Part shown: positions 35,606-52,066 of the stretch, in pieces | Numbering within the stretch: position 1 is the first letter of the stretch | Layout of the letters: each line of letters opens with the position of its first letter | Source of the DNA: Thermodesulfobacteriota bacterium | Lineage (GTDB): Bacteria; Desulfobacterota; Desulfobacteria; Desulfobacterales; Desulfosudaceae | DNA length: 64,000 bases | Reading direction: 5' to 3' | Assembly (NCBI GenBank): GCA_040753795.1 | Contig: JBFMDX010000010.1 | Location: 62,001-126,000, forward strand | The notes under the pieces: model-generated | Database searches by the model: none | The model's input: the letters and a program-made list of their open reading frames with translations, nothing else | What the model was told of the DNA's origin: nothing | Translations under genes and position numbers: made by a program

Positions 35606-36454
35606 TCATGTCTCCAGCTTCAGCGCAAAATTCATGATGTAGTAGTTATACGCCAGGGCCGCGCCCACGGCGATAATAAAAAGGATCACGGTAAACCAAC
35701 CTGTCAGGGCCGCGCCCAGAAGCAGATAGGCGATCAGCGCGTCGGCCGCCGTGTAGACGGCCAGGGTGAAGGCGTTTACCTTGTTGGATTCTTTTCTGAC
35801 CATGCCCCGGATAAAGGATATGGAGAAGACCGGCAGCAGCAGCACAACAACCATCCAGCTTAAGAACCGCCTGGCGGGCCGGATGCCATGTATCTGCTCC
35901 TGTACCGCGGCGCCGCTCAACAGCCCGGAGGCGATTTCGTTATGGTATTTCCGGCTCAGGAGGACCTGGCCGCTTTCCACGGAGGCGATTAGAAGATCGC
36001 AGTCGATCCTGGCTCCTCCTGAAACCGACTCAAAGGCGTTAATCCTGCCGAAGATGACGTTCTGCGCCCCCAGGGCTTTGCCCCGGCTGACGGCAGGGCT
36101 GATATCGGCAAAAACCGGCTGCCGCAGGTTTAAAAGCGCGCGCGCCTTTTCCATAAAGGTCCGGTCACGAAGATCAACAACCCCGGACAGTTCGATGCCG
36201 GAGCGAAGTTGATCGGTCACGTAATCGGAAGGGTCATTGGCCAGGTGCAGCAGAGCGGTTACCCCGGCAGCGAGCTGCGCTTCGTGTAAATCCCTGATTA
36301 CCTGGGGCACGATCTGGTCGGCCGCCTGCCTGCGGAGCGGGCTGACTTCCGGCTTGTGCGGCCCGAGATAAGTCCAGCCAAGCCAGGCCAGGTAACACGC
36401 GAACGCCATTGTCCCGGCCTGCATGAACGCTCTATATTGCCAGCGGTTGAACAT
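35606..36454 (-). CDS. Membrane protein with FlgO/CsgG-like domain
   Basis: 282 residues. An N-terminal membrane segment (AFMQAGTMAFACYLAWLGWTYL) is followed by an extracytoplasmic alpha/beta domain (~45-185) containing AVSRGKALGAQNVIFGRINAFE and LLIASVESGQVLLSRKY, features of CsgG/FlgO-like proteins. Three to four membrane helices end the protein (WMVVVLLLPVFSISFI and GWFTVILFIIAVGAALAYNYYI). The same periplasmic fold seems to occur in the caspase at 33502-35037, so the two may act together. Function unknown. Confidence 0.65.
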   Translation of the reverse strand: MFNRWQYRAFMQAGTMAFACYLAWLGWTYLGPHKPEVSPLRRQAADQIVPQVIRDLHEAQLAAGVTALLHLANDPSDYVTDQLRSGIELSGVVDLRDRTFMEKARALLNLRQPVFADISPAVSRGKALGAQNVIFGRINAFESVSGGARIDCDLLIASVESGQVLLSRKYHNEIASGLLSGAAVQEQIHGIRPARRFLSWMVVVLLLPVFSISFIRGMVRKESNKVNAFTLAVYTAADALIAYLLLGAALTGWFTVILFIIAVGAALAYNYYIMNFALKLET

Positions 36455-39115: not shown

Positions 39116-40117
39116 TTATTTTAAATCCAGCACGACCCGAAACCCGACATTGTTGCTCCGGTTGTCTTGCTGGTGCCTGCCACGGTACGCCGATCGACAG
39201 AACCTGGCGTAGTCATACCAACTGCCACCGCGCAGAATGCGATAACCAGAGTCACCAGCCCATGGGCTGCCGTCTGACGGTGCGCCTTTATAATCTTCAT
39301 GCCAGGGGTCCTCACACCATTCCCAGACATTGCCAATCATGTCATAAAGGCCCCAGGCATTTGGCCGCTGTTCACCCACTGGATGTGTCCCGCCGCCGCT
39401 GTTGTCGTTAGACCAGCCGATGCCCAAAGTACTGTAACGCGAATCAGTCGAACCGGCACGGCAGGCATATTCCCACTCGGCTTCAGTCGGCAGTCGTATC
39501 TCGCCTAATTCCAAATCCAGCCGATCATGAAGGCAATTTAAAAAAATGTCGCCCTCATTCCACGACACACTTTCAACGGGAAGTTTTTCTGTGTTGTTCT
39601 TCTGGAAATGCGAAGGATTATGGCCTATGACAACCTGCCACTGCTGCTGGGTAACAGGAAATTTGGCCACATAGAGAGGCGAGGAGATGGTCACTTTATG
39701 TTGTGGTTTTTCGTTCTCGGGAGCGTCTCCTTCATCGGGGGAGCCCATGAGGAACTCTCCCGGCGGAACCAGCCGCAGGACGATCCCCGTTTCTTTCAGC
39801 CTGACTTCCAGGGGATATCCTTTCTCCACCCACTCCTTCTGGCGCTTCTGGGCTGCTTCGCTGCCGGCATTTAAGCCACCCAGCCGCGCATATGCGGCGT
39901 CGGCAATTGGTTCCAGCCAGTCCGGCAGAAGGGGTTTTCCGTTTGCCGCCCCTTGAGCAGTGGTCGCTTGTCCGCAGGAAGGGCAGAACTTAAAAGCGCT
40001 GTCGATTTCATTGCCGCAGCCCTGACAGACATGCTTTTTGGCTATCTTCTGTCCGCAGGCCGGGCAGGCATTCCAGCCGTTCTGTATCTCCTGGTCACAC
40101 CTGGTGCATTTCATCAA
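39116..40117 (-). CDS. DGR target protein 2: zinc ribbons plus FGE-sulfatase-fold (C-type-lectin-like) domain
   Basis: 333 residues. Residues 1-~55 are two zinc ribbons (CTRCDQEIQNGWNACPACG, CQGCGNEIDSAFKFCPSCG). Residues ~100-333 are a formylglycine-generating-enzyme/sulfatase-modifying fold: LRLVPPGEFLMGSPDEG, PVTQQQWQVVIGHNPS, RLPTEAEWEYACRAGS, MIGNVWEWCEDPW. The end, LRGGSW...CRSAYRGR...GFRVVLDLK, is the variable region VR2. This fold is the classic DGR-diversified ligand-binding scaffold. It closely resembles the protein at 48054-49073. VR2 has silent drift relative to the TR, so its current retargeting is uncertain. Start is at one of two adjacent ATGs. Confidence 0.9.
   Translation of the reverse strand: MMKCTRCDQEIQNGWNACPACGQKIAKKHVCQGCGNEIDSAFKFCPSCGQATTAQGAANGKPLLPDWLEPIADAAYARLGGLNAGSEAAQKRQKEWVEKGYPLEVRLKETGIVLRLVPPGEFLMGSPDEGDAPENEKPQHKVTISSPLYVAKFPVTQQQWQVVIGHNPSHFQKNNTEKLPVESVSWNEGDIFLNCLHDRLDLELGEIRLPTEAEWEYACRAGSTDSRYSTLGIGWSNDNSGGGTHPVGEQRPNAWGLYDMIGNVWEWCEDPWHEDYKGAPSDGSPWAGDSGYRILRGGSWYDYARFCRSAYRGRHQQDNRSNNVGFRVVLDLK
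39124..39246 (-). repeat. DGR variable repeat VR2
   Basis: Homologous to the template repeat at 46425-46550. Over the core, about 13 differences fall at template adenines, mainly first and second codon positions, and about 10 at other bases, almost all at third positions. This fits past adenine mutagenesis followed by neutral drift. Confidence 0.8.
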
Positions 40118-40130
40118 AGGTTCCTTTTTG

Positions 40131-41372
40131 CTATGAAAGAGTTTTTTCGCAGTTGGGGCAGAACTTCCAGGACCTGTCTACCGCGCATCCGCATGCAAGG
40201 CATTTTCTCTCCGGCAGAAGCGATTTTTCGCAGTTGGGGCAGAACTTCCAGGACTTGTCTACCGCGCAACCGCAGGCGGTGCATTTTCTTTCCGACAAAT
40301 TCCTGCCGCATGTCGTGCAAAAAGCATAGGAAGCAGCAACCGGGCTTTGGCAGTAGGGGCACTGGTCGGTTTCTGCTTGGGCGGCGTTTTCCTCAATATT
40401 CCGGGGTTCGTCAGTTGTTGTATCGGTTTGTATGACGACTTGATTTTCTTCCGTCGGCGGGGGGGGGGGCTCCAGAGGAGGTGTCCCGGTCAAGGGTGGC
40501 GTTTCAGCACGTGGAAGGTCTTCTTCTGACTGTGCCTTCGGAATTTTTTCGTCCCCGACTGGAAGTACCAGCGCCACGGGTGGCGTTTCAGCAATCGGTT
40601 CGCTGGGAATTTTTAACGGCCGGGCCGACGGCACGACAAGGGAGGGGAGGACGCCGCTTTTCTGGATCCAGGGCCGCTGGTCGATGGTAAAGCCGTAATT
40701 TCGCGCCAGGGCAGCCATTTTTTGAGAGAGGATCTCTTCGACCTGGTCGGTGAGCGTGACGGCGTCGCCGGTCTCCAGACGTTCCTGCAGGGTCTGCAAG
40801 AGGGCCAGAGAGAAAACGCCCTGACGGCACTGAGCGATCTCACGGGACTGTTGGCCTTCGTCGCAGGAGCAGATGATGGCCAGCGAACCCGCCCCGGCCG
40901 GTTCGGCCGAGACCATTTCCCGCAGGCACTTGACGTCCCGCAAGCCGGCACCTGTACTGCGTTCGCCGCGAAGCAGGTCGGTGCGGCAGGCATCCAGGAT
41001 CAGGACCCGGTGAAGGCCGTTTCGGGTGGTTTCCTGCTTGATAAGGTCCAGGGGCACGGCGTGCTGGTGATACTTTAACCGGGAATAGCGGGCCCTGGGG
41101 CAGAGCAGCAGGTGGCGGCCCTCATATTCCACGCCATGGCCGGCAAAAAAAAGCAGAAAAAGGTCGTTCGGGGCAAGGCCGGCAGCCATGTCATGGGCCG
41201 TGTCCAGGAGCAGGTCGCTGTCCGGGCTGAGCAGGTTGCGGACATCGTCGTACCCGGCCCGGTGCTTGAAAAAGGCGTAAAGCTCGGTGGCATCGGACTC
41301 GGCGCAGTCCAGATTGTTGATCTCCGGGTCCTCGTACCGGTTGACACCGATAAACAACGCCGCGCGCTTCAT
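40131..41372 (-). CDS. Caspase-like (C14) peptidase with C-terminal zinc ribbons
   Basis: 413 residues. The caspase domain (1-~230) has the catalytic histidine in FFAGHGVE (His79) and cysteine in LILDACRTD (Cys129). A proline-rich linker (~270-330) leads to three zinc-ribbon motifs at the C-terminus (CPYCQSPVAASYAFCTTCG, CTACGCAVDKSWKFCPNCE and CLACGCAVDRSWKFCPNCE). The first ~290 codons are nearly identical in DNA to the caspase at 42285-44339, so one arose by recent duplication or gene conversion. It is encoded 14 bases upstream of DGR target 2 and probably cleaves proteins on a signal from the diversified sensors. Confidence 0.9.
   Translation of the reverse strand: MKRAALFIGVNRYEDPEINNLDCAESDATELYAFFKHRAGYDDVRNLLSPDSDLLLDTAHDMAAGLAPNDLFLLFFAGHGVEYEGRHLLLCPRARYSRLKYHQHAVPLDLIKQETTRNGLHRVLILDACRTDLLRGERSTGAGLRDVKCLREMVSAEPAGAGSLAIICSCDEGQQSREIAQCRQGVFSLALLQTLQERLETGDAVTLTDQVEEILSQKMAALARNYGFTIDQRPWIQKSGVLPSLVVPSARPLKIPSEPIAETPPVALVLPVGDEKIPKAQSEEDLPRAETPPLTGTPPLEPPPPPTEENQVVIQTDTTTDEPRNIEENAAQAETDQCPYCQSPVAASYAFCTTCGRNLSERKCTACGCAVDKSWKFCPNCEKSLLPERKCLACGCAVDRSWKFCPNCEKTLS
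40594..41370 (-). repeat. Duplicated caspase-domain segment, copy A
   Basis: This stretch is almost identical to 43558-44338 (copy B), covering the caspase catalytic domain of both genes; similarity fades in the downstream linkers. End points approximate. Confidence 0.85.
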
Positions 41373-42284: not shown

Positions 42285-44339
42285 TTAGCGAATATATTCT
42301 TCCGGATCCTCGCGGCAGGACCGCAATTTTTTTTCTAACGTTTTCCGCTCTATATCTGATGTTATTCTGGATGCGACATAACGAAATAATTCCCGCCCCT
42401 TCTTTTGTTCTCCCATAAAAAAATATGCTTGGCCTAAATAACCCCATGAAATATCATCAAATATTCCCTTGTTGTTGCCTTCTGCCCGTTTTATGAAATC
42501 TTCAGCCTTGCGAAGAACAGAGACGGCACGGTTGGTATTATCAAGATTATCAAACCAGAGAAGAGCAAGTTGCATAGCATGAAATCCAGGTAAAGTATCA
42601 GGAAATCCGATCGACTCGAACTTCTCAATAACTGATGTTGCAAACTGAAAATCACCAGCGTCATAAAAATTCTTAATTAGATCAGCCATGAAGATTAGAT
42701 CGCCTGTTTCCAGCCGAGTAATTGCCTTTTCCAACATCCGTTTGCTGGCGGCAACGTCACCGGTTATCCTAAAATATCCTTCTGCTACATCAATGAAATC
42801 GCTCTTTGCTTTAGCCAAACGCTCTGCCTTTTTCAGTAGATCGTCAGGATCAATCTTGTCGGAAGGCAGCACACAGGTATATTGGGCCAGTGTCACGTAT
42901 TCCGAAGCAGATGCAGCTTTGGCATAGGCATCTTGCCACAGCCGTGCCGCCTTATTGCCATCACCAAGCAGGTCGTAAAAAGCCAGCGCTATGTTTGTCG
43001 CATCATAGACGCTGTCGGCTGATCTGCTGGCACGCTCCAATGCTTCGGCTGTCTTGTTGCGTTCTTTAAAAATCAGGGCATAAATATAAGCGGCGCGCAG
43101 GAAAAAGCTTGTTTTATCTTCTACTGAACCGTAGCTATACTTGACAGGTCCTCTTTGGATTTCCTTTGCCCCATCCATCCGGCTGAACCGGCCTTCAACA
43201 GCATCCGGCAACTGTTTGAACAGATGAATCCTCACGATGCGATTTAAATCAAGAAATACACAAAAATGCCAATTGGGGGAAAGCGCCATGGCTTTTGTAG
43301 AATGTTCAAGTAAGCTGACAGCCTGATCCTTGTCCGTTGGTTTTTCCAGATTATCCAGACAGAAAAGCGCATCAAACGCCAATCGCTTTATCCTTTGTAT
43401 CCGGTTGCCAAGGACTCGCTCCCTGAATTCCAGGAGGGCCGGGGAAAGATGAGCGGACTTTTCTTTGTCAGCGGTTGGTATGGAAGTGTCTTCTGATGGC
43501 TGCTTCGGAATCTTTTTATTCTTGACTGGAATAATCTGCGTCACGGGTGGTGTCTCAGCAATCGGCTCGCTGGTGATTTCTCCCAGCCGGGACGATGGGG
43601 CGACAAGGGCGGGTGTGGCGCCGCTTTTCTGGATCCAGGGCCGCTGGTCGATGGTAAAGCCGTAATTTCGCGCCAGGGCCGCCATTTTTTGAGAGAGGAT
43701 CTCTTCGACCTGATCGGAGAGCGTGACGGCATCGCCGTTCTCCAGGCGTTCCTGCAGGGTCTGCAAGAGGGCCAGAGAGAAAACGCCTTGACGGCACTGG
43801 GCGATTTCGCGGGACTGCTGGCCTTCATCGCAGGAACAGATGATGGCCAGCGAACCGCCCCCGGCCGGTTCGGCCGAGACCATCTCCCGCAGGCACTTGA
43901 CGTCCCTCAAGCCGGCACCGCCGCCCCGTTCGCCGCGAAGCAGGTCGGTGCGGCAGGCGTCCAGGATCAGGATTCGGTGAAGGCCTTTTCGGGTGGTCTC
44001 CTGCTTGATAAGGTCCAGGGGCACGGCGTGCTGGTGATACTTTAGCCGGGAATAGCGGGCTTTCGGGCAGAGCAGCAGGTGGCGGCCCTCGTATTCCACG
44101 CCGTGGCCGGCAAAGAAGAGCAGAAAGAGGTCATCCGGGGCAAGGCCGGCGGCCATGTCATGGGCCGTGTCCAGCAGCAGATCACTGTCCGGGCTGAGCA
44201 GGTTGCGGACATCGTCGTACCCGGCCCGGTGCTTGAAAAAGCCGTAAAGCTCGGTGGCATCATACTCGGCGCAGTCCAGGTTGTTGATCTCCGGGTCATC
44301 GTAGCGATTTACACCGATAAACAACGCCGCGCGTTTCAT
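42285..44339 (-). CDS. Caspase-like (C14) peptidase with C-terminal TPR-like helical repeats
   Basis: 684 residues from the ATG at 44339 (MKRAALFIGVNRY, the same start as its paralogue). The caspase domain (1-~230) has FFAGHGVE (His79) and LILDACRTD (Cys129). After a variable linker, residues ~310-684 form alpha-helical repeats resembling TPRs (TAEALERASRSADSVYD, NKAARLWQDAYAKAASA, ISWGYLGQAYFFMGEQKKG). The repeats would recruit partners or substrates. It follows the Vps4-like ATPase gene by 19 bases and precedes the zinc-ribbon/PHD-like gene by 14. Confidence 0.9.
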   Translation of the reverse strand: MKRAALFIGVNRYDDPEINNLDCAEYDATELYGFFKHRAGYDDVRNLLSPDSDLLLDTAHDMAAGLAPDDLFLLFFAGHGVEYEGRHLLLCPKARYSRLKYHQHAVPLDLIKQETTRKGLHRILILDACRTDLLRGERGGGAGLRDVKCLREMVSAEPAGGGSLAIICSCDEGQQSREIAQCRQGVFSLALLQTLQERLENGDAVTLSDQVEEILSQKMAALARNYGFTIDQRPWIQKSGATPALVAPSSRLGEITSEPIAETPPVTQIIPVKNKKIPKQPSEDTSIPTADKEKSAHLSPALLEFRERVLGNRIQRIKRLAFDALFCLDNLEKPTDKDQAVSLLEHSTKAMALSPNWHFCVFLDLNRIVRIHLFKQLPDAVEGRFSRMDGAKEIQRGPVKYSYGSVEDKTSFFLRAAYIYALIFKERNKTAEALERASRSADSVYDATNIALAFYDLLGDGNKAARLWQDAYAKAASASEYVTLAQYTCVLPSDKIDPDDLLKKAERLAKAKSDFIDVAEGYFRITGDVAASKRMLEKAITRLETGDLIFMADLIKNFYDAGDFQFATSVIEKFESIGFPDTLPGFHAMQLALLWFDNLDNTNRAVSVLRKAEDFIKRAEGNNKGIFDDISWGYLGQAYFFMGEQKKGRELFRYVASRITSDIERKTLEKKLRSCREDPEEYIR
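43558..44338 (-). repeat. Duplicated caspase-domain segment, copy B
   Basis: Near-identical partner of 40594-41370; see copy A. The flanking coding sequence (TPR-like here, zinc ribbons there) is unrelated, so only the protease module was duplicated or homogenised. Confidence 0.85.
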
Positions 44340-44358: not shown

Positions 44359-45495
44359 CTATTCGTCGTCTTCCCCCGCGTCATTCGGGCCGGTGCGCTT
44401 TTCGCGCCAGGCATCAAACTCCTTCATCATGGCGGCAGTGACGGAAGGCCGGACACGCGCCAGGGCGTCCTTGAAATCCTGCGAGCCGACCATGGCTTCG
44501 GTTTCACCGGCCAGTTGCCGCTTCAGCGCCGAGCGCTTGGCCCGGTCGCAGACTTCGGCAATGTCCGCCCCGCTGTAACCTTCGGTCTGCGAGACGATTT
44601 CATCGTAAGCCAGGTCGGTAGCCACCGGCACGCCCTTGAGGTTGTATTCCAGCATGGCCTTGCGGGCGGGCGCGTCGGGCGGGCCGACGTAGATGTGCGT
44701 TCCCATTCGGCCGGGACGGATGACCGCCTCATCGAGCACCCAGGGTTTATTGGTCGCGCCCAGCACCAGCAGGCAGTTGGTGTTCTTCACCAGCCCGTCC
44801 ATCTGCGTGAGGAACTGCGCGACGGTGCCGATTTTGCGGTTGCCGCGCTTGGCCAGCAGATGATCCACCTCGTCGAGGAAGAGCACGGCCTTGGGATGCT
44901 TACGGGCCTCGTCAAAGAGCCGCTGAATGTTCTTCTCGGTCTCGCCGACGTACTTGTCCTTGATCTGGGAGGCGTTGACGTTGAAGAAGGCTGCGTCCAG
45001 CTCGCCGGCGATGGCCTTGGCGACAAAGGTCTTGCCGTTGCCCGGCGGGCCATACATGAGGATGCCGCCGCCGATCTTGACCTTGAATTTTTCATAGGCC
45101 TCCGGATGCTGAAACGGCTCGATGACCTTATCGCGGAGTTCCTGCTTGACGTCTTGCAGGCCGGCCACATCGTCCAGCTTCTCCGTGGGTTTTTCCTTGA
45201 GTTGCCACTGGGACTGGGCCGCGTCCTCTTCGCCGGCGGATTCCCTGACCTGCTTGCGACCGGGGGCCGGGGCCTGTTTGACCGCCTTGGCCTTGAGTTC
45301 CTCGGCGATGTCCAGCAGTTCGAAGGCGTCGTCCACATAGCTTTGAGCGATCTTGCCGTCAACCTGCTCGGCCAGCGCAAAACCGAACTCGGCGGCCTTG
45401 GCCGTGTGAAAGAAAGCTTTGGCATAATCCTTCTCGCTCAGCGCCTTTTCGGCGGCGTTTTCGTGTTCTCGTTTCTTATCGGCGATGAAACTCAT
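44359..45495 (-). CDS. Vps4-like AAA ATPase with MIT-like N-terminal domain
   Basis: 378 residues. Residues 1-~75 are a three-helix bundle with the pattern of MIT domains (EKALSEKDYAKAFFHTAKAA, then SYVDDAFELLDIAEELKAKA). After a linker, the AAA domain has DDVAGLQDVKQELRDKVI, Walker A GPPGNGKT (149-156), Walker B VLFLDEVD (~204-211), sensor 1 LVLGATNKPW, the arginine finger region RPGRMGTHIYVGPPD, and EGYSGADIAEVCDRAKRSAL. This is the meiotic/Vps4-katanin-spastin type rather than FtsH or ClpX. Its start overlaps the stop of the ESCRT-III-like gene (ATGA). I infer that it remodels polymers of that protein. Confidence 0.85.
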   Translation of the reverse strand: MSFIADKKREHENAAEKALSEKDYAKAFFHTAKAAEFGFALAEQVDGKIAQSYVDDAFELLDIAEELKAKAVKQAPAPGRKQVRESAGEEDAAQSQWQLKEKPTEKLDDVAGLQDVKQELRDKVIEPFQHPEAYEKFKVKIGGGILMYGPPGNGKTFVAKAIAGELDAAFFNVNASQIKDKYVGETEKNIQRLFDEARKHPKAVLFLDEVDHLLAKRGNRKIGTVAQFLTQMDGLVKNTNCLLVLGATNKPWVLDEAVIRPGRMGTHIYVGPPDAPARKAMLEYNLKGVPVATDLAYDEIVSQTEGYSGADIAEVCDRAKRSALKRQLAGETEAMVGSQDFKDALARVRPSVTAAMMKEFDAWREKRTGPNDAGEDDE

Positions 45496-46139
45496 TTGTC
45501 GCCCTCCATCAGATTCTTAAGCCGCCGTCTCCCTTCGCCTATGCGCTGCTTGAGGCTGGGCTCGGTTTCGCCGCTTTCCGCGGTCTTGGCCGTCCGGGGA
45601 CCGCCCAGGTCGGCGGCGACCTCGTCGGACAGTTGCTTCATCATGTCATCCGTGGAGGGGATGGCATCGGCCATCTGGGTTTCGGCGCCTTCCATCTCCT
45701 TGCCGTACATCTTCTCCCAGATCTTGTCGGTATCCACCTGCTCGCCGAGTTTATCCTGAACCTCGTCGAGAACATCGGCCACCGCTTCGGGGTCGATCTT
45801 GACCACGGTGTTGATGGCGGAAAGCGCCTGGGTAAAATCCTGATCGGTCTTGGCCAGTTCCAGCTTGGTGAGCAACTGCTCGAAGACCCAGCGCTTCATC
45901 TCCAGCTTGCCCATCATTACCTCGCTGGCGCGCACCGTTTGCAGGTTACGCTGGGCGGCGGCCTTCTGGCCGTCCTTGAGATACTGCCGCGCCTCGGTCC
46001 AGGCCTTGTCGCGGTCCTTCTTCAGCTTGGTGAGGCGGTCCTTGACGACATCCACCGCGCTCTCGGCTTCTCGAAAGGCCTTGCGCCGCTTTTTGGCCTC
46101 CTCCCGCTCCCGTTCCTGTTTTGACTTGAATAGGCTCAT
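45492..46139 (-). CDS. ESCRT-III/Snf7-like coiled-coil protein with MIM1-like tail
   Basis: 215 residues. A basic N-terminus (MSLFKSKQEREREEAKKRRK) leads to a long charged helical hairpin (DRLTKLKKDRDKAWTEARQ, LKDGQKAAAQRNLQTVRAS), then shorter helices and an acidic linker, the charge layout of Snf7/CHMP and PspA-type proteins. The C-terminus has EPSLKQRIGEGRRR (193-206), matching the MIT-interacting MIM1 pattern [DE]xxLxxR[LI]xx-x-[KR] except that the final leucine is glycine. The next gene encodes a MIT-like Vps4-type ATPase and is translationally coupled. A distant PspA-like assignment is the main alternative. Confidence 0.7.
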   Translation of the reverse strand: MSLFKSKQEREREEAKKRRKAFREAESAVDVVKDRLTKLKKDRDKAWTEARQYLKDGQKAAAQRNLQTVRASEVMMGKLEMKRWVFEQLLTKLELAKTDQDFTQALSAINTVVKIDPEAVADVLDEVQDKLGEQVDTDKIWEKMYGKEMEGAETQMADAIPSTDDMMKQLSDEVAADLGGPRTAKTAESGETEPSLKQRIGEGRRRLKNLMEGDK

Positions 46140-46163: not shown

Positions 46164-47615
46164 TTAAGCCGCTCGTAAATATTCAATTATCCCGGAATTT
46201 TTCTTTAAACAAACAAAAGAGATCATCTTTCCTGATCCGGTTTTAGAGATGAGAACCGGGCGGGGCGTTCTCCACGGAGGATACCAGTCCCGCCCGGCCT
46301 CGCCGTACGGATTTGGCCAGCCGCCTTGAAAACCGGATGACGCAGGAGCAAGGCCAGGACTTTCACCGCCACACTCGACGGATCCATGAATCCGTCGATT
46401 CCGGGCGGGCCACAGGGGCCGGGAAAGTGCAGCACGACCCGAAAGCCGTTGTTGTTGTTCCGGTTGTCCGGCTGGTTCCTGTTGCGGTTGGCCGACCGGC
46501 AGTTCCTGTCGTTGTTGTTCCAACTGCCGCCGCGCAGGACGTGGGCCGTTAACGGTCTTGCCCCTTTGGAAGGTCCACTCCCGCGAAAGCCGCCGGAGCA
46601 GACAAACGCTGTTTGCCTGTCGCGCATGGCCGATCCAGCCGTCCAGGCGCGGCTTGATGTCTTCCCAATCCATATCGCCGGCGGCATAGGCCTGGCGCAT
46701 GTTTCGCACGCGACGACGAAAATCCCGGATATTATTCTTGCGAATTTCCCGATGGGTCGGCCATATGCGGAATCCCACAAAAGTAGCGCCTTCCCGCACG
46801 GGCCGGATGGAAAGCCGTTCTTCGTGCAGGCGCAAACGAAGCCCGGCGGCAAAGTCCCGGACGCCGTCAACAGCCTCGGCCAAGTCGGGCCGATGGCGGG
46901 AAAGCAGAACAAAATCGTCGCCATAACGCACATAGGCCCCGACGCCGAGGCGACTGGTGATAAAATGATCCAGGCCCGTCAAGTACCAGTTGGCAAACCA
47001 CTGGCTGGTGAGATTGCCGATGGGAAGCCCCCGTCGGCGACAATGGGGTTCCAGCAGATCATCTCCCGGGAAATATTCCAGAACCGCTTCCTGCTCGTTG
47101 CTGCCATCCACGATCAGATCCTGCAAGCGGAGAACCGGCCGGTCTTTTATGATGCGTCGGAACAGGGCTTTGAGAATTTCGTGGTCGATGCTGGGGAAAA
47201 ATTTGCGGATATCGCCTTGAACAAAGTAGGCGTGCCGCCGCATCAGCGCCTGGAGCCGATTTGCCGCCGCAAGAGTGCCTTTGCCTTTTCTGCAAGCAAA
47301 GCAGGCCGGATGCATGTGCCGATCCAGGATCGGCTCCAGCACGTTTATCAGGGCGTGGTGGACAACCCGGTCCCGGTAGGGAGCGGCCGATATCAGGCGC
47401 GGCTTCGGGCGGCTGATCCAGTGCGTCGAGAAAGCCCCCGGCCGATAGGAACCGTCCAGCAGTTGATCCCGCAAAGAGAGCAATTCCGTTTCCAGGCGGA
47501 ACTCGAATTGCTGCGTGGCCGAGCGGTTTCGTTTTCTTCGCCGCGCTTTGCAGGCCGCCAGGAGCAGGTTGTCCCAGGAGATCACGGAGTCCCAGAGGTT
47601 TCCGTACCGCTTCAT
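46164..47615 (-). CDS. DGR reverse transcriptase with C-terminal extension over the template repeat
   Basis: 483 residues from the ATG at 47615, in an ATGA overlap with avd. Residues 1-~345 are a reverse transcriptase: [15 protein letters not shown], motif [14 protein letters not shown] (Asp135), the DGR-type signature [16 protein letters not shown] (others have QGxxxSP), and [14 protein letters not shown] (YxDD at 231-234). The usual family length is 320-380. Here the frame continues about 130 residues, rich in Gln, Pro and Arg, across the template repeat (about residues 356-397) before stopping. The extension may not be functional protein. With Avd it copies TR RNA into cDNA with errors at adenines. 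Confidence 0.93.
46375..46398. other. Hairpin just past the template repeat
   Basis: TCGACGGAT, six bases, ATCCGTCGA: a perfect 9-bp stem about 27 bases beyond the 3' end of TR. It may shape or end the DGR RNA. Confidence 0.55.
46425..46550 (-). repeat. DGR template repeat (TR)
   Basis: Read on the minus strand, the repeat parallels the last ~40 codons of the target genes and has 12 AAC codons in that frame ([10 protein letters not shown], then [21 protein letters not shown]). AAC enrichment is characteristic of DGR templates, since mutated AAC yields many residues but no stop. It lies inside the 3' part of the reverse transcriptase frame but in a different phase. Confidence 0.95.
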
Positions 47616-47956
47616 GATGCGACTCCCTTGCTGGCCAGCCATCCGCCGATCTGCGCGCCGATACTTTGCATTCTTTCGGCCGCATGTCCGTGACTTTTCT
47701 GCGGCAGGGCCTTCAAATCCTTGGACAGCCTGACCTGAAAGCGAAGCACCTCCAGTTCAATGTTCGCATCGTTGAGAAAATCCGTTTTGCGGCGCGAATA
47801 TTTGGCCCGCAGAAGCAGTTCCAGAATCCGCTGAAGGCGATTCTCCATGGCCAGCCCCAGACTGTAGCGATGATGGCGCGGGAACTTCTCCGTATGACTG
47901 ATGAGCCACAGGGTGAAGTCATAGAAGTCCTGAATGACTTTCAACTCTTGCGCCAT
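47612..47956 (-). CDS. avd: DGR accessory variability determinant Avd
   Basis: 114 residues from the ATG at 47956, normal for Avd. A basic four-helix bundle related to the S23/23S rRNA intervening-sequence family: VIQDFYDFTLWLISHTEKFPR, RYSLGLAMENRLQRILELLL, RRKTDFLNDANIELEVLRFQVRL and a final GGWLASKG. In the Bordetella phage DGR the Avd pentamer binds the reverse transcriptase and template RNA and is required for diversification. It lies between target 1 (about 100 bases upstream, with the hairpin in between) and the reverse transcriptase gene, which it overlaps. Confidence 0.9.
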   Translation of the reverse strand: MAQELKVIQDFYDFTLWLISHTEKFPRHHRYSLGLAMENRLQRILELLLRAKYSRRKTDFLNDANIELEVLRFQVRLSKDLKALPQKSHGHAAERMQSIGAQIGGWLASKGVAS

Positions 47957-47995
47957 ATTCTTCTCTCCATGCCGAGCGGCCATTTTTGCCGTCGA

Positions 47996-48014
47996 CCAGG
48001 GGCTTCGCCCCTGG
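47996..48014. other. Hairpin downstream of VR1
   Basis: CCAGGGGC, TTC, GCCCCTGG: a perfect 8-bp stem about 40 bases past the stop of DGR target 1. A homologous segment with hairpin follows VR2. Confidence 0.65.
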
Positions 48015-48053
48015 ACCCCAAAAACAAAGGGTAAAAGGGCAAAATCCAAAGGG

Positions 48054-49073
48054 TTATTTTAAGTCCAGCACGACCCGAAAGCCGCTGCTGACGTCCCGGT
48101 TGCCCGGCCGGCTCCTGCCGCGGTAGGCCGACCGGCAGTTCCTGCCGCTGCTGTTCCAACTGCCGCCGCGCAGGACGCGGGCCGCTCCGACGTACGCCCA
48201 AGCCGTCCAAACGCTGCCGTCCTGCGGTGCGCCTTTATAATCTTCATGCCAGGGGTCCTCACACCATTCCCAGACATTGCCGATCATGTCATGCAATCCC
48301 CAGGCATTGGCTTTCTTTTCTCCCACCGGGTGCGTCGTTTCGCCGCTGTTATCCTCAAACCAGCCGATATCATCAAGTTTGCCATAACGAGAAGCTACGG
48401 CTCCGGCACGGCAGGCATATTCCCACTCAGCTTCGGTAGGCAGGCGCACCTTGCTTGATCCCAGGCCCAATAGATCATATAAATTATTCAGACGACTTAA
48501 ATAAGCCTGGCAGTCATCCCAAGACACGCTTTCAACAGGATTATTATCCGTATCACCTTCCTGGAAGGCAGAAGGGTTCTGACCCATCACTACCTGCCAC
48601 TGCTGCTGGGTAACAGGAAACTTAGCCACATAGAGGGGCGAGGCGATCGTCACTTTATGCTGCGGCTTCTCGTCAGCTTGGGCTTCCGGATCATCGGAAG
48701 AACCCATGAGGAACTCTCCCGGCGGAACCAGCCGCAGGACGATCCCCGTTTCTTTCAGCCTGATTTCCAGGGGATATCCTTTCTCCACCCACTCCTTCTG
48801 GCGCTTTTGGGCTGCCTCGCTGCCGGCATTCAAACCGCCCAGCCGCGCATAGGTGGCGTCGGCGATTGGTTCCAGGAAGTCCGGCAGAAGGGATTTTCCA
48901 TTTGCTGCCCCTTGGGCGGATGCTGCTTTTCCGCAGAAAGGACAGAATTGAAAAGACAGGTCGAGTTCTTTGCCGCAGCCCTGACAGATATGTTTTTTGG
49001 CTATCTTCTGTCCGCAGGCCGGGCAGGCATTCCAGCCGCTCTGTATTTCCTGGTTACACTTGGTGCATTTCAT
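48054..49073 (-). CDS. DGR target protein 1: zinc ribbons plus FGE-sulfatase-fold (C-type-lectin-like) domain
   Basis: 339 residues. Two N-terminal zinc ribbons (CTKCNQEIQSGWNACPACG, CQGCGKELDLSFQFCPFCG), a linker, then an FGE-sulfatase fold at ~100-339 (LRLVPPGEFLMGSSDD, PVTQQQWQVVMGQNPS, RLPTEAEWEYACRAGA, MIGNVWEWCEDPW). The C-terminal LRGGSWNSSGRNCRSAYRG ... GFRVVLDLK is variable region VR1. The diversified residues should line the ligand-binding face. The start codon overlaps the stop of the coiled-coil gene upstream (TGATG). No signal peptide, so the sensor is cytoplasmic, unlike phage or surface DGR targets. Confidence 0.93.
   Translation of the reverse strand: MKCTKCNQEIQSGWNACPACGQKIAKKHICQGCGKELDLSFQFCPFCGKAASAQGAANGKSLLPDFLEPIADATYARLGGLNAGSEAAQKRQKEWVEKGYPLEIRLKETGIVLRLVPPGEFLMGSSDDPEAQADEKPQHKVTIASPLYVAKFPVTQQQWQVVMGQNPSAFQEGDTDNNPVESVSWDDCQAYLSRLNNLYDLLGLGSSKVRLPTEAEWEYACRAGAVASRYGKLDDIGWFEDNSGETTHPVGEKKANAWGLHDMIGNVWEWCEDPWHEDYKGAPQDGSVWTAWAYVGAARVLRGGSWNSSGRNCRSAYRGRSRPGNRDVSSGFRVVLDLK
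48061..48186 (-). repeat. DGR variable repeat VR1
   Basis: Aligned with TR over about 125 bases, VR1 shows 15 substitutions, every one at an adenine of the template sense strand (13 to G, 2 to T) and none elsewhere. This is direct evidence of recent adenine-specific mutagenic homing from this TR. Confidence 0.95.
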
Positions 49074-49678
49074 CAGCGATCTGTCTCCAGTTCTTTTAAG
49101 CGTTGAAGCGTTGATTCGGAAAGCTCGGCTGAAGTCTCTTTGGTCCCCTCCAGTTCGCCGACCCGTTGGGACACATCCATGGCGGCGCGCTCCGGCCCTT
49201 CATAGCTTTCCCGCTCAAGGTCGCGAGCTTCGCGGTCGGAAGCCTTGAGCTGTCCGAACATACCCTGAAGATCCAGGGCGATGTCATCCAACTGCCCTTC
49301 CTGGATGCCGCTGGACTGGGCCGCGACAAGCTCGTGAACCTTGGCGAGCGCCAGGGAGATGCGGTCCACGTTGGCGGTGATGATGGTCTCCCGCCCCTTC
49401 AGGCGGTCAAGGTCGCGGAAGGTCTGCTCGATTTCGCGGATCAGCATCCGCTTGATATCGCCGCGGGCCGCATCCGACTCCTTTTTTTTCTGAACGGCGC
49501 GGTTTTCCAGCCTGCGGATTTCATCCTTCAACGTTTCCAGCTGGTCCATGTTGCCGGCGCGGGCGGCCGACAGTTTCTGTTCCATCAGCTCCAAATGTTT
49601 GGCCTGGGACGGTTTCATGCCGAGCGATGCGGCGATTTTTGCCAGTACAGCAGACAGGTTTTCATTCAACTTGCCCAT
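49073..49678 (-). CDS. Coiled-coil protein, possible second ESCRT-III/PspA-like subunit
   Basis: 201 residues, almost entirely charged helix. A central long hairpin (LETLKDEIRRLENRAVQKKK, IKRMLIREIEQTFRDLDRLKG, ANVDRISLALAKVHELV) is followed by acidic shorter helices, and the end STLQRLKELETDR contains RLxxL as in MIT-interacting tails, though spacing to the upstream leucine is one residue short. No membrane segment. Layout and context suggest a partner of the ESCRT-III-like protein at 45492-46139. It lies between the papain-like peptidase (7 bases) and DGR target 1 (overlap). Confidence 0.55.
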   Translation of the reverse strand: MGKLNENLSAVLAKIAASLGMKPSQAKHLELMEQKLSAARAGNMDQLETLKDEIRRLENRAVQKKKESDAARGDIKRMLIREIEQTFRDLDRLKGRETIITANVDRISLALAKVHELVAAQSSGIQEGQLDDIALDLQGMFGQLKASDREARDLERESYEGPERAAMDVSQRVGELEGTKETSAELSESTLQRLKELETDR

Positions 49679-49684
49679 GGTCTA

Positions 49685-52066
49685 TCACTCCTTTTCTTCC
49701 GATGCACGTCGGTTTATCTGCGCTTGAACAAGCCCAGTTCCATATACCAAAAAGACGATAAGCAGGAAGCCGGTAACGCCGCCGATGTTTATCATGCTTT
49801 TTAACGCCAGGCCGCTGACGCCGACGCCGGCGCTGACAAACAGCAGGAAGTGCCGGCGCAGGAAACCCCGATGAAATGAGGCAGGCGTCAGTTTTGACTG
49901 ATCACCCGGGCGACGGCGGCGAATGGCAATGGCCCCCCCCTTCAACTGTTCGACCAGGTAAGTGTCCCGGCTGACCTCCTGCATGGCCAGGAAGGCGTCA
50001 CGGACCGTTGTTTTTCGATAGTGCGTCTCCCCGGCGATTTTTTCAACGGTGATGTTGGCCTCATATCCGTCGGCGATACGGCGGTCCACCACGGTTTTAA
50101 CTGTTGATACCCGTTCCTGCCAGGTAAGGGGCGCCATGCGGTCAAGAAAGTTGCGGAACGACACGCGCGTGGCAAAGAAGGGCGGGGTGGTTGTCTGCCA
50201 CAGGTCATCGTTATTGAAACAACTCAAAAGGATGCAATGGTCGCCCGCTGCCATGCCTTTTATGTCTTCCGGCCAGGGCAAGGCGGAACCCAGGGTAAAA
50301 AAGCTATAGACCGGCTTGCGGCCGGCGGCGGTGTCAGCTTGTCGCGCGACGAGGTCGCGCACGGCTTGAATGGTTGCGGCATCAGGCCTGGCAAAGGAGG
50401 GCGGCTGGTCCGGCTGCAATTTAACCGGGGTAATAAACGCGGCCACGATCCGGATATCCGCGGGAATAGACTTTATTCGATAGATGCGGAGGGAATTAAC
50501 CGCCGACAGGGCCGCCATCCACTCCCGGGGCGGTTTCATGTCCGGCGGGCACCCGGTTTGTGCCAGGAGCGCATGCCGGAGGCCGTCGGTCAGGTCGGAT
50601 TCCTGAGTGAAACGGCGGATATGGGACTGCCATGGCAGCAGGGACGCGGCCGTGGGCAGGTTGATGTCGGGGAAGGCCGCGCCCACGGCGGTCTTGAGGT
50701 TTTCCTCGATTGCGGCAAAAAATTTCTGGCTGGCGGATTGTTTGCGGGCCAGATCGCCGACAAACCTGTCGGGCCAGTCGGCTCTGGCAGGAAACCAGAG
50801 GCTCGCCCTGAGTTCCGGGGTCCAGGCCCGATTCAGTCGCAGAAATTCCTGGCGGTTTTCGGGGGTGTCTTCCCGTAAAACATCCGGCTGTCGGGGATGA
50901 TACAGGACCCGTGTGCCGGGCTTGAGCAGGCGGCGATCCAGGTCGCGGCCCTCCCTTTCGAGTACGCGAACAAATTCACGCCATTCCGGCTCCGGCGATT
51001 CCATTTTTACTTCCTTTACAGGAGCGCTGGGCGGACCCGTGAACGCTTCCACGGCGAAACGTTCAATATAGTCGTATGGCAGCAGCGCATGGCCGGGAGC
51101 TTCCGGGCTGTCCGGCGCCCAGCCGAGTCCCCAGCTGTTGCGGACGATAAAGTAGCCGCCGCCGGGAACCGTATCATCATCGACGTAACCCACCGCGCAC
51201 ATGGCGTGTCCGCCCACGATCTCTTCGCCGGGAAGGGGCAGCGTAATCTTGCCGGTGCGATTTGTTTCTGCCGAACAATACCAGCTGTCGAAGACCAGCG
51301 TCCCGAATGTTACCGGCATTCCGCCCTGACCGTTCTCGCCGGCAAGGACGTACTTGTAATTCTGAACGAGCCCCGGCTCCACGGTACGGGCCGAAGGCAG
51401 GCGATAGCGTTTGGCCTTTTCCTGTGGATCAGACCGGGGCGGCCCCTGGCCTTCGGTGGCCGATTGCATGGGGTTATATGGCCAGGCCGAGGCCTGACAT
51501 ACCCCGTATTCCTGGAGAACCGTCATGGCGGTGTGAAGGGCGGTTCCGGGATCCGGGCTGCCGTCCAGCTCCTTGCATCCCCAGTAAAGGAATTGCTCAG
51601 ACAGGGGCTCCGGCGGCGTGAGCAGGAATTCGCGCAAGGCAACGGTGGCGAAAGCAACGCAAGTGCCGCGCTCCCCCTGGTCGCGGGCCGGCGGCAGGCG
51701 ATCCATCAGGCGGACGGCCGGCGGCAGGCGATCATCAAAGGCGCCGGCAGGCAACGGACGGGATGGTCGCAGGCGTCCTTCCGCGCGATAGATATCAACC
51801 ATTTGCGGGTCAAGGAGGCAACCCAGAAGGCCCCCCCGTTGCGGCCGGCGAAGCAGGGCCAGACGATTTGATGGGACAGCGGCGGCAAAGTTATTGGTTG
51901 AGAGGGCGCGCAGCGCGATTGCCTCGCTGCTTTGATGCTTGTCCGACAGGGCGGCGATAAGGGCGATGGCCTCTTCAACCGATTCAATCCACAAGGACTG
52001 GAGCAAACGGACCTGGTCCGGTGATATCGCAAGAGATGAAAGAGGTGTCTGACCGGGTATCCTCAT
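49685..52066 (-). CDS. Papain-like (C1A) cysteine peptidase with helical N-terminal domain and C-terminal membrane segments
   Basis: 793 residues. The first ~60 residues are a helical module (SPDQVRLLQSLWIESVEEAIALI) that resembles the small protein encoded next. The peptidase domain (~110-350) has the papain residues RDQGERGTCVAF (Gln130, Cys136), GGHAMCAVGY (His287) and FIVRNSWGLGW (Asn310). A large middle region is unassigned. Near residue 735-780 two membrane helices occur (FLLFVSAGVGVSGLALK and TGFLLIVFLVYGTGLV), leaving both ends probably cytoplasmic. Its start overlaps the preceding gene (ATGA). It may be an effector of the cluster. Confidence 0.85.
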   Translation of the reverse strand: MRIPGQTPLSSLAISPDQVRLLQSLWIESVEEAIALIAALSDKHQSSEAIALRALSTNNFAAAVPSNRLALLRRPQRGGLLGCLLDPQMVDIYRAEGRLRPSRPLPAGAFDDRLPPAVRLMDRLPPARDQGERGTCVAFATVALREFLLTPPEPLSEQFLYWGCKELDGSPDPGTALHTAMTVLQEYGVCQASAWPYNPMQSATEGQGPPRSDPQEKAKRYRLPSARTVEPGLVQNYKYVLAGENGQGGMPVTFGTLVFDSWYCSAETNRTGKITLPLPGEEIVGGHAMCAVGYVDDDTVPGGGYFIVRNSWGLGWAPDSPEAPGHALLPYDYIERFAVEAFTGPPSAPVKEVKMESPEPEWREFVRVLEREGRDLDRRLLKPGTRVLYHPRQPDVLREDTPENRQEFLRLNRAWTPELRASLWFPARADWPDRFVGDLARKQSASQKFFAAIEENLKTAVGAAFPDINLPTAASLLPWQSHIRRFTQESDLTDGLRHALLAQTGCPPDMKPPREWMAALSAVNSLRIYRIKSIPADIRIVAAFITPVKLQPDQPPSFARPDAATIQAVRDLVARQADTAAGRKPVYSFFTLGSALPWPEDIKGMAAGDHCILLSCFNNDDLWQTTTPPFFATRVSFRNFLDRMAPLTWQERVSTVKTVVDRRIADGYEANITVEKIAGETHYRKTTVRDAFLAMQEVSRDTYLVEQLKGGAIAIRRRRPGDQSKLTPASFHRGFLRRHFLLFVSAGVGVSGLALKSMINIGGVTGFLLIVFLVYGTGLVQAQINRRASEEKE

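Follow-up and report, generated by a model that had tools for sequence, protein, structure and literature searches.

A probable bacterial ESCRT-III/Vps4 gene pair with its own conserved C-terminal motif in a Thermodesulfobacteriota genome

According to earlier descriptions, complete ESCRT-III/Vps4 pairs occur only in archaea and eukaryotes. Bacteria have PspA/Vipp1 as their known branch of the ESCRT-III superfamily, and the main text of Ravi et al. 2024 (PMC11237479) mentions bacterial Snf7 members with AAA+ ATPases as well as Vps4-like ATPases transferred to bacteria, with snf7 displaced by another gene where such an ATPase was transferred. The names Planctomycetes, Verrucomicrobia and Lentisphaerae have 0 occurrences in that main text; its supplementary tables may list family members. 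Among the literature matches listed, no open-access report of an ESCRT-III/MIT-AAA pair in bacteria was found. We analysed a stretch of 64,000 nucleotides (hereafter, the window) from a Thermodesulfobacteriota bacterium (assembly GCA_040753795.1, contig JBFMDX010000010.1, positions 62,001 to 126,000), in which two adjoining genes on the minus strand encode an ESCRT-III (Snf7)-like protein of 215 amino acids (aa; 45492-46139) and a Vps4-like AAA ATPase of 378 aa (44359-45495). The pair probably constitutes a bacterial ESCRT-III/Vps4 membrane-remodelling module.

The two genes meet in the sequence ATGA at 45492-45495, where the ATG of the ATPase gene overlaps the stop codon of the ESCRT-III-like gene. 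The contig that holds them has 142,686 bases, and the genome is 99.76% complete with a contamination of 1.61%. The coordinates and the adjoining gene pair reported in a first-pass annotation, which was made from the sequence alone, were borne out as two overlapping minus-strand open reading frames (ORFs).

The Pfam Snf7 profile (PF03357) matched the 215-aa protein alone with an E-value of 4.3e-5 and 23.7 bits, and a search of PDB sequences with this single protein up to E 10 returned only four matches, all Snf7 sequences, the best at 0.0047. Among 14 control genomes searched with the same Pfam profile at E<=0.001, only Sulfolobus gave matches. A family profile was built from alignment A3, which holds 23 homologues out of 18 loci; against PDB sequences, its top four matches were Snf7 proteins (E 1.8e-8 to 8.4e-8). 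Conversely, Pfam Snf7 at E<=1 was matched by 20 of the 23 family members, with a best value of 8.7e-9, and the runner-up Pfam family, DUF2852, by seven (best 0.0014). These profile matches point to Snf7 homology at the level of the family.

An AlphaFold model of the 215-aa protein, built from four alignment rows, has predicted helices at residues 7-55, 59-94, 99-113, 117-130, 137-149, 152-159 and 163-178. A linker modelled with low confidence (180-194) separates these from the final helix (196-213). The predicted local distance difference test score (pLDDT) is about 77-91 in the hairpin helices 7-55 and 59-94 and below 50 in residues 116-137. As modelled, this order of an alpha1-alpha2 hairpin core, further helices and a linker is that of ESCRT-III proteins. 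Foldseek ranked CdvB first, followed up to rank 8 by CHMP1B/IST1, Snf7, Asgard ESCRT-IIIB and IST1; Vipp1 (ranks 9 and 10) and Ist1 came next, so that ranks 1-11 are all ESCRT-III superfamily chains, none of them at E<=0.001, and PspA stands at rank 13.

The ATPase matches Pfam AAA (1.6e-37) and AAA_lid_3 (3.6e-11), and Vps4_C just below its threshold (20.6 bits, with a cut-off of 21.3). Its Walker A (GPPGNGKT) and Walker B (LFLDEVD) motifs, read off the sequence, are intact, and these features place the protein in the classical AAA clade, with a single, presumably active domain. The first 77 residues were modelled with a pLDDT of 89.9 and helices at 3-20, 24-44 and 51-74, giving a predicted MIT-like three-helix domain at residues 3-74 (45274-45489, minus strand). 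Among the 50 PDB chains listed by Foldseek, the best TM-scores belong to MIT domains, namely those of VPS4A (0.79/0.79) and SKD1/VPS4B (0.76-0.79), and the Sulfolobus Vps4 MIT domain also appears (0.62-0.63). VIA-align paired the domain with the VPS4A MIT domain at Z 11.3 and a root-mean-square deviation of 2.3 over 74 residues, and with that of NRBF2 likewise at Z 11.3. By its predicted fold, then, the ATPase begins with an MIT domain. Sequence models were silent on this point: the Pfam MIT family (PF04212) was absent among the families matched by 18 MIT-like domains, and a profile of these domains found designed three-helix proteins and TPRs but no MIT among PDB sequences, so the MIT assignment rests on the predicted fold. 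The first-pass annotation had described a Vps4-type ATPase with a three-helix MIT-like start; the AAA match and the predicted fold agree with it, and the MIT sequence models do not. It had also proposed structure predictions and hidden Markov model comparisons. The predicted structures lacked neither an ESCRT-III hairpin nor an MIT bundle, and of the profiles compared, Snf7 matched at family level while those for PspA_IM30 and MIT did not.

Some MIT-AAA proteins of related loci carry a second AAA domain in one chain (L039, 5372-7762; L042, 8074-11094; L040, 941-3166), a tandem unlike Vps4. In one carrier genome (G890), an additional MIT-like match (contig C15, 4466-4663; E 4e-8) falls in a 467-aa frame apart from the ESCRT locus. 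The PADLOC IetA model matches the AAA part of the window ATPase (5.9e-37), as do many AAA families, and an identity as an IetA-like defence ATPase was not adopted.

The nearest relatives of the 215-aa protein are encoded in metagenome-assembled genomes (MAGs) of Phycisphaeraceae (75%), Planctomycetota (69%) and Lentisphaerae (45%). In the phylum to which the Lentisphaerae MAG belongs, a four-sequence profile found the gene in 15 of 387 genomes, counting this MAG itself. Fetching 14 new regions gave 18 loci, and five regions added later brought the set used for neighbour counts to 23. Of the 18 loci, 17 have the MIT-AAA gene; in 13 it directly adjoins the ESCRT-III gene, and in the other four it lies no more than 4 kb away. 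In the sole locus without it, L031, the only AAA neighbour is a weak one that lacks MIT. In the later regions, the MIT-AAA gene follows the ESCRT-III gene in all four in which the sequence continues, and the fifth contig stops 32 bases past the gene. Across 197 genomes of one class, separate profiles detected the ESCRT-III gene in 14 (E<=1e-4) and the MIT-like domain in 14 (E<=1e-3), with 13 in common (hypergeometric 2.7e-18, relatedness ignored). The two exceptions are G881, where the contig is cut, and G595, with an MIT match over 30 positions at E 6e-4. Several loci hold ESCRT-III paralogues (two in L032, two in L042 and four in L039). In the window's own phylum, the single-protein search had no match other than the window (1 of 395 genomes and 1 of 96 relatives), and the family profile gave one marginal match among the 394 other genomes, covering 79 profile positions in a 708-aa frame, which was not counted. 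No match was found in the phages, plasmids and viral contigs searched.

The predicted C-terminal helix of the 215-aa protein (residues 196-213; 45501-45554, minus strand; pLDDT about 50-70) follows the low-confidence linker and carries a motif, IxxGxxRLxxLM (residues 200-211; 45507-45542, minus strand), that is conserved across homologues. In the window, it reads IGEGRRRLKNLM, that is, I200-x-x-G203-x-x-R206-L207-x-x-L210-M211. The first-pass annotation had stated that the protein ends with EPSLKQRIGEGRRR and that this end fits the MIM1 motif of eukaryotic ESCRT-III proteins apart from one glycine. That stretch spans residues 193-206, with nine residues further to the end, and the MIM1 claim failed on its glycine at the MIM1 leucine position and on its register, the conserved tail element sitting seven residues beyond the one proposed. 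A loose MIM1 pattern was found in none of the 23 tails and in none of the five tails fetched later. The window tail keeps what we take to be a MIM1-like RLxxL core, with glycine at the first leucine and isoleucine at the acid position. MIM1 is not universal among ESCRT-III subunits, and Vps20-like ones have MIM2, according to PMC11188069.

The pattern [ILV]xx[GA]xxx[LVI]xx[LIM], picked after inspecting the 23 tails of the 18 loci, occurs in 13 of them, with an average of 0.36 and a maximum of 4 in shuffled tails. It also occurs in all five later tails, which were found by a profile that covers the tail region; given that L064 and L067 are near-identical at the tail and that L034 and L039 have apparent close counterparts in L065 and L066, these represent fewer than five independent cases. 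On this sequence pattern, the conserved C-terminal helix motif is family-specific and not MIM1. By eye, a label looser than the pattern that counts L030, L032 and L042 as tailed, the tail is absent in four loci (L035, L038, L040 and L031). No MIT match was found in L031. The lowest-scoring of the matched MIT domains are those of L035 and L038, at 32 and 23 bits (tailed loci, 56 to 131), and these are the most degenerate although the AAA domains of the two loci score mid-range. The MIT domain of L040, at 51.6 bits, is the lowest of the remaining loci and is not degenerate relative to its AAA score. The ratio of MIT to AAA scores differs between tail-less and tailed loci with p 0.016, a weak test, because only three tail-less loci remain once L031 is left out, and one that ignores relatedness. 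As a whole, the bacterial ESCRT-III/Vps4 pair with an MIT-like domain and a C-terminal helix, as first proposed, finds support in profiles, folds and conserved pairing; its MIM1 match does not.

Several results weigh against reading the pair as an ESCRT-III/Vps4 module. For the ATPase, Vps4_C was matched at E<=0.01 in four of 19; the NCBIfam scores of the window protein are a near tie between CdvC (217.8 bits, far below its 650-bit cut-off) and CDC48 (217.0 bits); for the ten others scanned, the CdvC score is exceeded by that of CDC48 or FtsH; and the best 60 of 265 PDB matches are p97/Cdc48, AFG2, NVL, Rix7 and relatives, with no Vps4. As these scores bring the AAA part no nearer to CdvC than to CDC48, "Vps4-like" describes architecture and partner rather than descent. 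For the MIT-like domain, two designed chains came first by Foldseek E-value, with no value below 0.001; unrelated helical bundles reached Z 9-11 in VIA-align (a histone chaperone, 11.0), where such bundles may reach Z 13 by chance; and Pfam MIT had no match in the window's own genome, while the Sulfolobus control was found. Ten of the 23 tails lack the motif, and caspases occur in only five of the 23 loci. For the 215-aa protein, the model has only middling confidence (mean pLDDT 69.3), and VIA-align scores arfaptin/F-BAR domains (Z up to 9.3) on a par with CdvB2 (9.2), so a fold score alone cannot separate ESCRT-III from BAR proteins. The Snf7 score of the window protein alone is below the curated cut-off of 27.3 bits, as are those of its three nearest relatives; Sulfolobus, a true ESCRT bearer, also falls under this cut-off, which we count in favour of the pair. 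At E<=0.1, six of the 14 control genomes, including E. coli and B. subtilis, give Snf7 matches below the cut-off. In the search of PDB sequences with the family profile, two engineered kinesin-light-chain/TPR-like proteins followed the Snf7 entries (9.2e-7 and 2.5e-4, on 33 residues), ahead of Asgard ESCRT-IIIB (0.0056). The low Snf7 score of the window protein, the control matches at E<=0.1, the BAR scores and the TPR-like matches would suit a generic coiled-coil protein, its Snf7 likeness an artefact of composition, served by a chaperone-like AAA ATPase. We think this very unlikely: a second coiled-coil family of the same operons (seven sequences), put through the same search, had no Snf7 among 43 matches, the first 11 Foldseek ranks all belong to the ESCRT-III superfamily, and the MIT-like gene was found in the same genomes by a separate profile.

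Of the small probability that we leave to rival explanations, the largest share goes to a divergent PspA/Vipp1 protein with an unrelated AAA partner, a reading that draws on the membership of PspA and Vipp1 in the ESCRT-III superfamily and on their places in the Foldseek list. The PspA_IM30 profile, matched in nine of the 14 control genomes, matches neither the window's own genome nor any of the 18 carriers searched, the sequence matches are to Snf7 and Asgard ESCRT-III, and the partner ATPase has a predicted MIT-like domain. PspA partners are not known for such a domain, and PspA is not known to work with an MIT-AAA partner. The smallest share falls to a Cdv-like cell-division ESCRT acquired from archaea, for which the window ATPase having CdvC as its best NCBIfam match, by that narrow margin and far below the cut-off, and CdvB heading the Foldseek list would speak. 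A tubulin/FtsZ-family gene is present in 17 of the 18 carriers (16 above the cut-off; the miss is G930), and it is for this reason that a division role was set aside; the FtsZ and PspA searches covered 18 of the 24 known carrier genomes (all but G479, G480, G881, G888, G889 and G890). Also against a division role, the module occurs in only 14 of the 197 genomes of the class, with at most the one marginal case among 394 others in its own phylum, and its neighbours include a sigma factor in seven and a papain-like peptidase in ten of the 23 loci, no division gene being recognised with Pfam among 30 operon and neighbour proteins scanned. We retain the ESCRT-III/Vps4 module as the probable reading and the best account.

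The pair lies in a row of minus-strand genes that starts with a papain-like (C1) peptidase protein of 793 aa (49685-52066; Pfam Peptidase_C1 5e-8) and a second coiled-coil protein of 201 aa (49073-49678), a common partner. Considered as another Snf7 member, the latter had no Snf7 match by profile. There follow a double zinc ribbon and FGE-sulfatase protein (48054-49073; Pfam FGE-sulfatase 4.1e-49), an Avd accessory protein (47612-48049; NCBIfam DivGenRetAVD 96.1 bits, cut-off 80) and a reverse transcriptase (46164-47642; Pfam RVT_1 7.8e-17). After the ESCRT-III and MIT-AAA genes come a caspase-domain protein (42285-44339; Pfam Peptidase_C14 3.4e-18), a zinc-ribbon protein, a caspase and zinc-ribbon protein (40131-41372; Peptidase_C14 1.4e-19) and a second FGE protein. 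A template repeat inside the reverse transcriptase ORF (46425-46548) and a variable repeat in the first FGE gene (48061-48184) differ at 16 positions, 15 of them at template adenines. On this sequence evidence, the reverse transcriptase, Avd and FGE genes with their adenine-biased repeats are a diversity-generating retroelement (DGR), with the zinc ribbon and FGE-sulfatase protein as its target. In the far FGE gene (39116-40117), the variable repeat (39123-39235) has its mismatches at 13 A, 10 C and 2 G, which suggests a copy that is older or unlinked.

In the 23 loci, the neighbours include relatives of the second coiled coil (17), the c3 family (14), the papain-like peptidase (10), a sigma factor, a sigma-adjacent gene and DUF4384 (seven each), Band_7/zinc-ribbon, FHA and FGE proteins (six each) and a retroelement reverse transcriptase (two); the counts are lower bounds, as several loci end early, and the identities come from Pfam on representatives. 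The c3 family, represented in the window at 35606-36454, is uncharacterised, about 300 aa long with a conserved C-terminal end, and its best match is a weak one to LpoB (E 0.081). The sigma-factor gene (a region 4 match in the L039 copy) and its uncharacterised neighbour occur in L030, L034, L039, L040, L042, L065 and L066. Caspases fused to BspA-type leucine-rich repeats lie near the ESCRT pair in L034 (16116-18110) and L065 (15199-16752); of the four caspase genes in L034, one includes an FGE domain. Among the 30 scanned proteins, Pfam revealed no clear winged-helix, ubiquitin or ESCRT-I/II domain.

From the homology, the predicted folds, the conserved pairing and the conserved tail, all found by computation, we infer how the module may work. 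The 215-aa ESCRT-III subunit would consist of a short conserved N-terminus, the long alpha1-alpha2 hairpin, smaller helices, a flexible linker and the C-terminal helix, and would bind the cytoplasmic membrane and form polymers there. Using the MIT-like domain at its N-terminus, the co-translated ATPase would grip the C-terminal helix, which is exposed, and thread subunits through its pore, extracting them so that the polymer is remodelled or disassembled. The DGR in the operon may diversify a candidate sensor. Because of its neighbours and of the roles of ESCRT elsewhere, membrane remodelling under damage together with peptidase effectors seems a reasonable setting, and we tentatively suggest that the module deals with membrane damage tied to infection or programmed cell death. 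It may also stand in for PspA, which was unmatched in the 18 carriers. More speculative is the broader proposal that bacteria of the Planctomycetes and Lentisphaerae kind possess a complete ESCRT-III/Vps4 machine that uses an MIT-tail code of its own and is wired into caspase or papain-like death or anti-infection operons.

If the reading is true, a conserved bacterial pair would extend the ESCRT machine to the third domain of life, offer a small system for studying how a motor recognises its filament, and inform the question of whether ESCRT is older or was spread by transfer. Under the more speculative proposal, bacteria would have an equivalent of the eukaryotic ESCRT-III that acts where membranes are damaged in programmed cell death. 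The setting with caspases, papain-like peptidases and a sensor-diversifying retroelement allows a direct test of whether membrane repair and programmed death are linked in bacteria.

Among known systems, the DGR-diversified conflict systems of multicellular bacteria (Kaur 2020, PMC7159879; PMC10907252) likewise have a DGR targeting an FGE/C-lectin protein near caspases; the words ESCRT and Snf7 are absent from the main texts of both papers. With PspA/Vipp1, the present family has the superfamily and the hairpin fold in common, and the PspA_IM30 profile is unmatched. It differs from archaeal and eukaryotic ESCRT in being bacterial, in a C-terminal motif that is not MIM1, in an AAA domain that by profile score is no closer to CdvC than to CDC48, and in operons that hold a papain-like peptidase, caspase, sigma factor or retroelement. 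Band_7/zinc-ribbon and FHA proteins, each found in six of the 23 loci, are partners of a kind that PMC11188069 describes for some archaeal systems. With the ESCRT-III/Vps4 systems of archaea and eukaryotes (Cdv, Asgard and Snf7/Vps4), the family shares Snf7-related subunits, an AAA ATPase with a predicted MIT-like domain, a conserved C-terminal helix, gene adjacency and, in some loci, several ESCRT-III paralogues.

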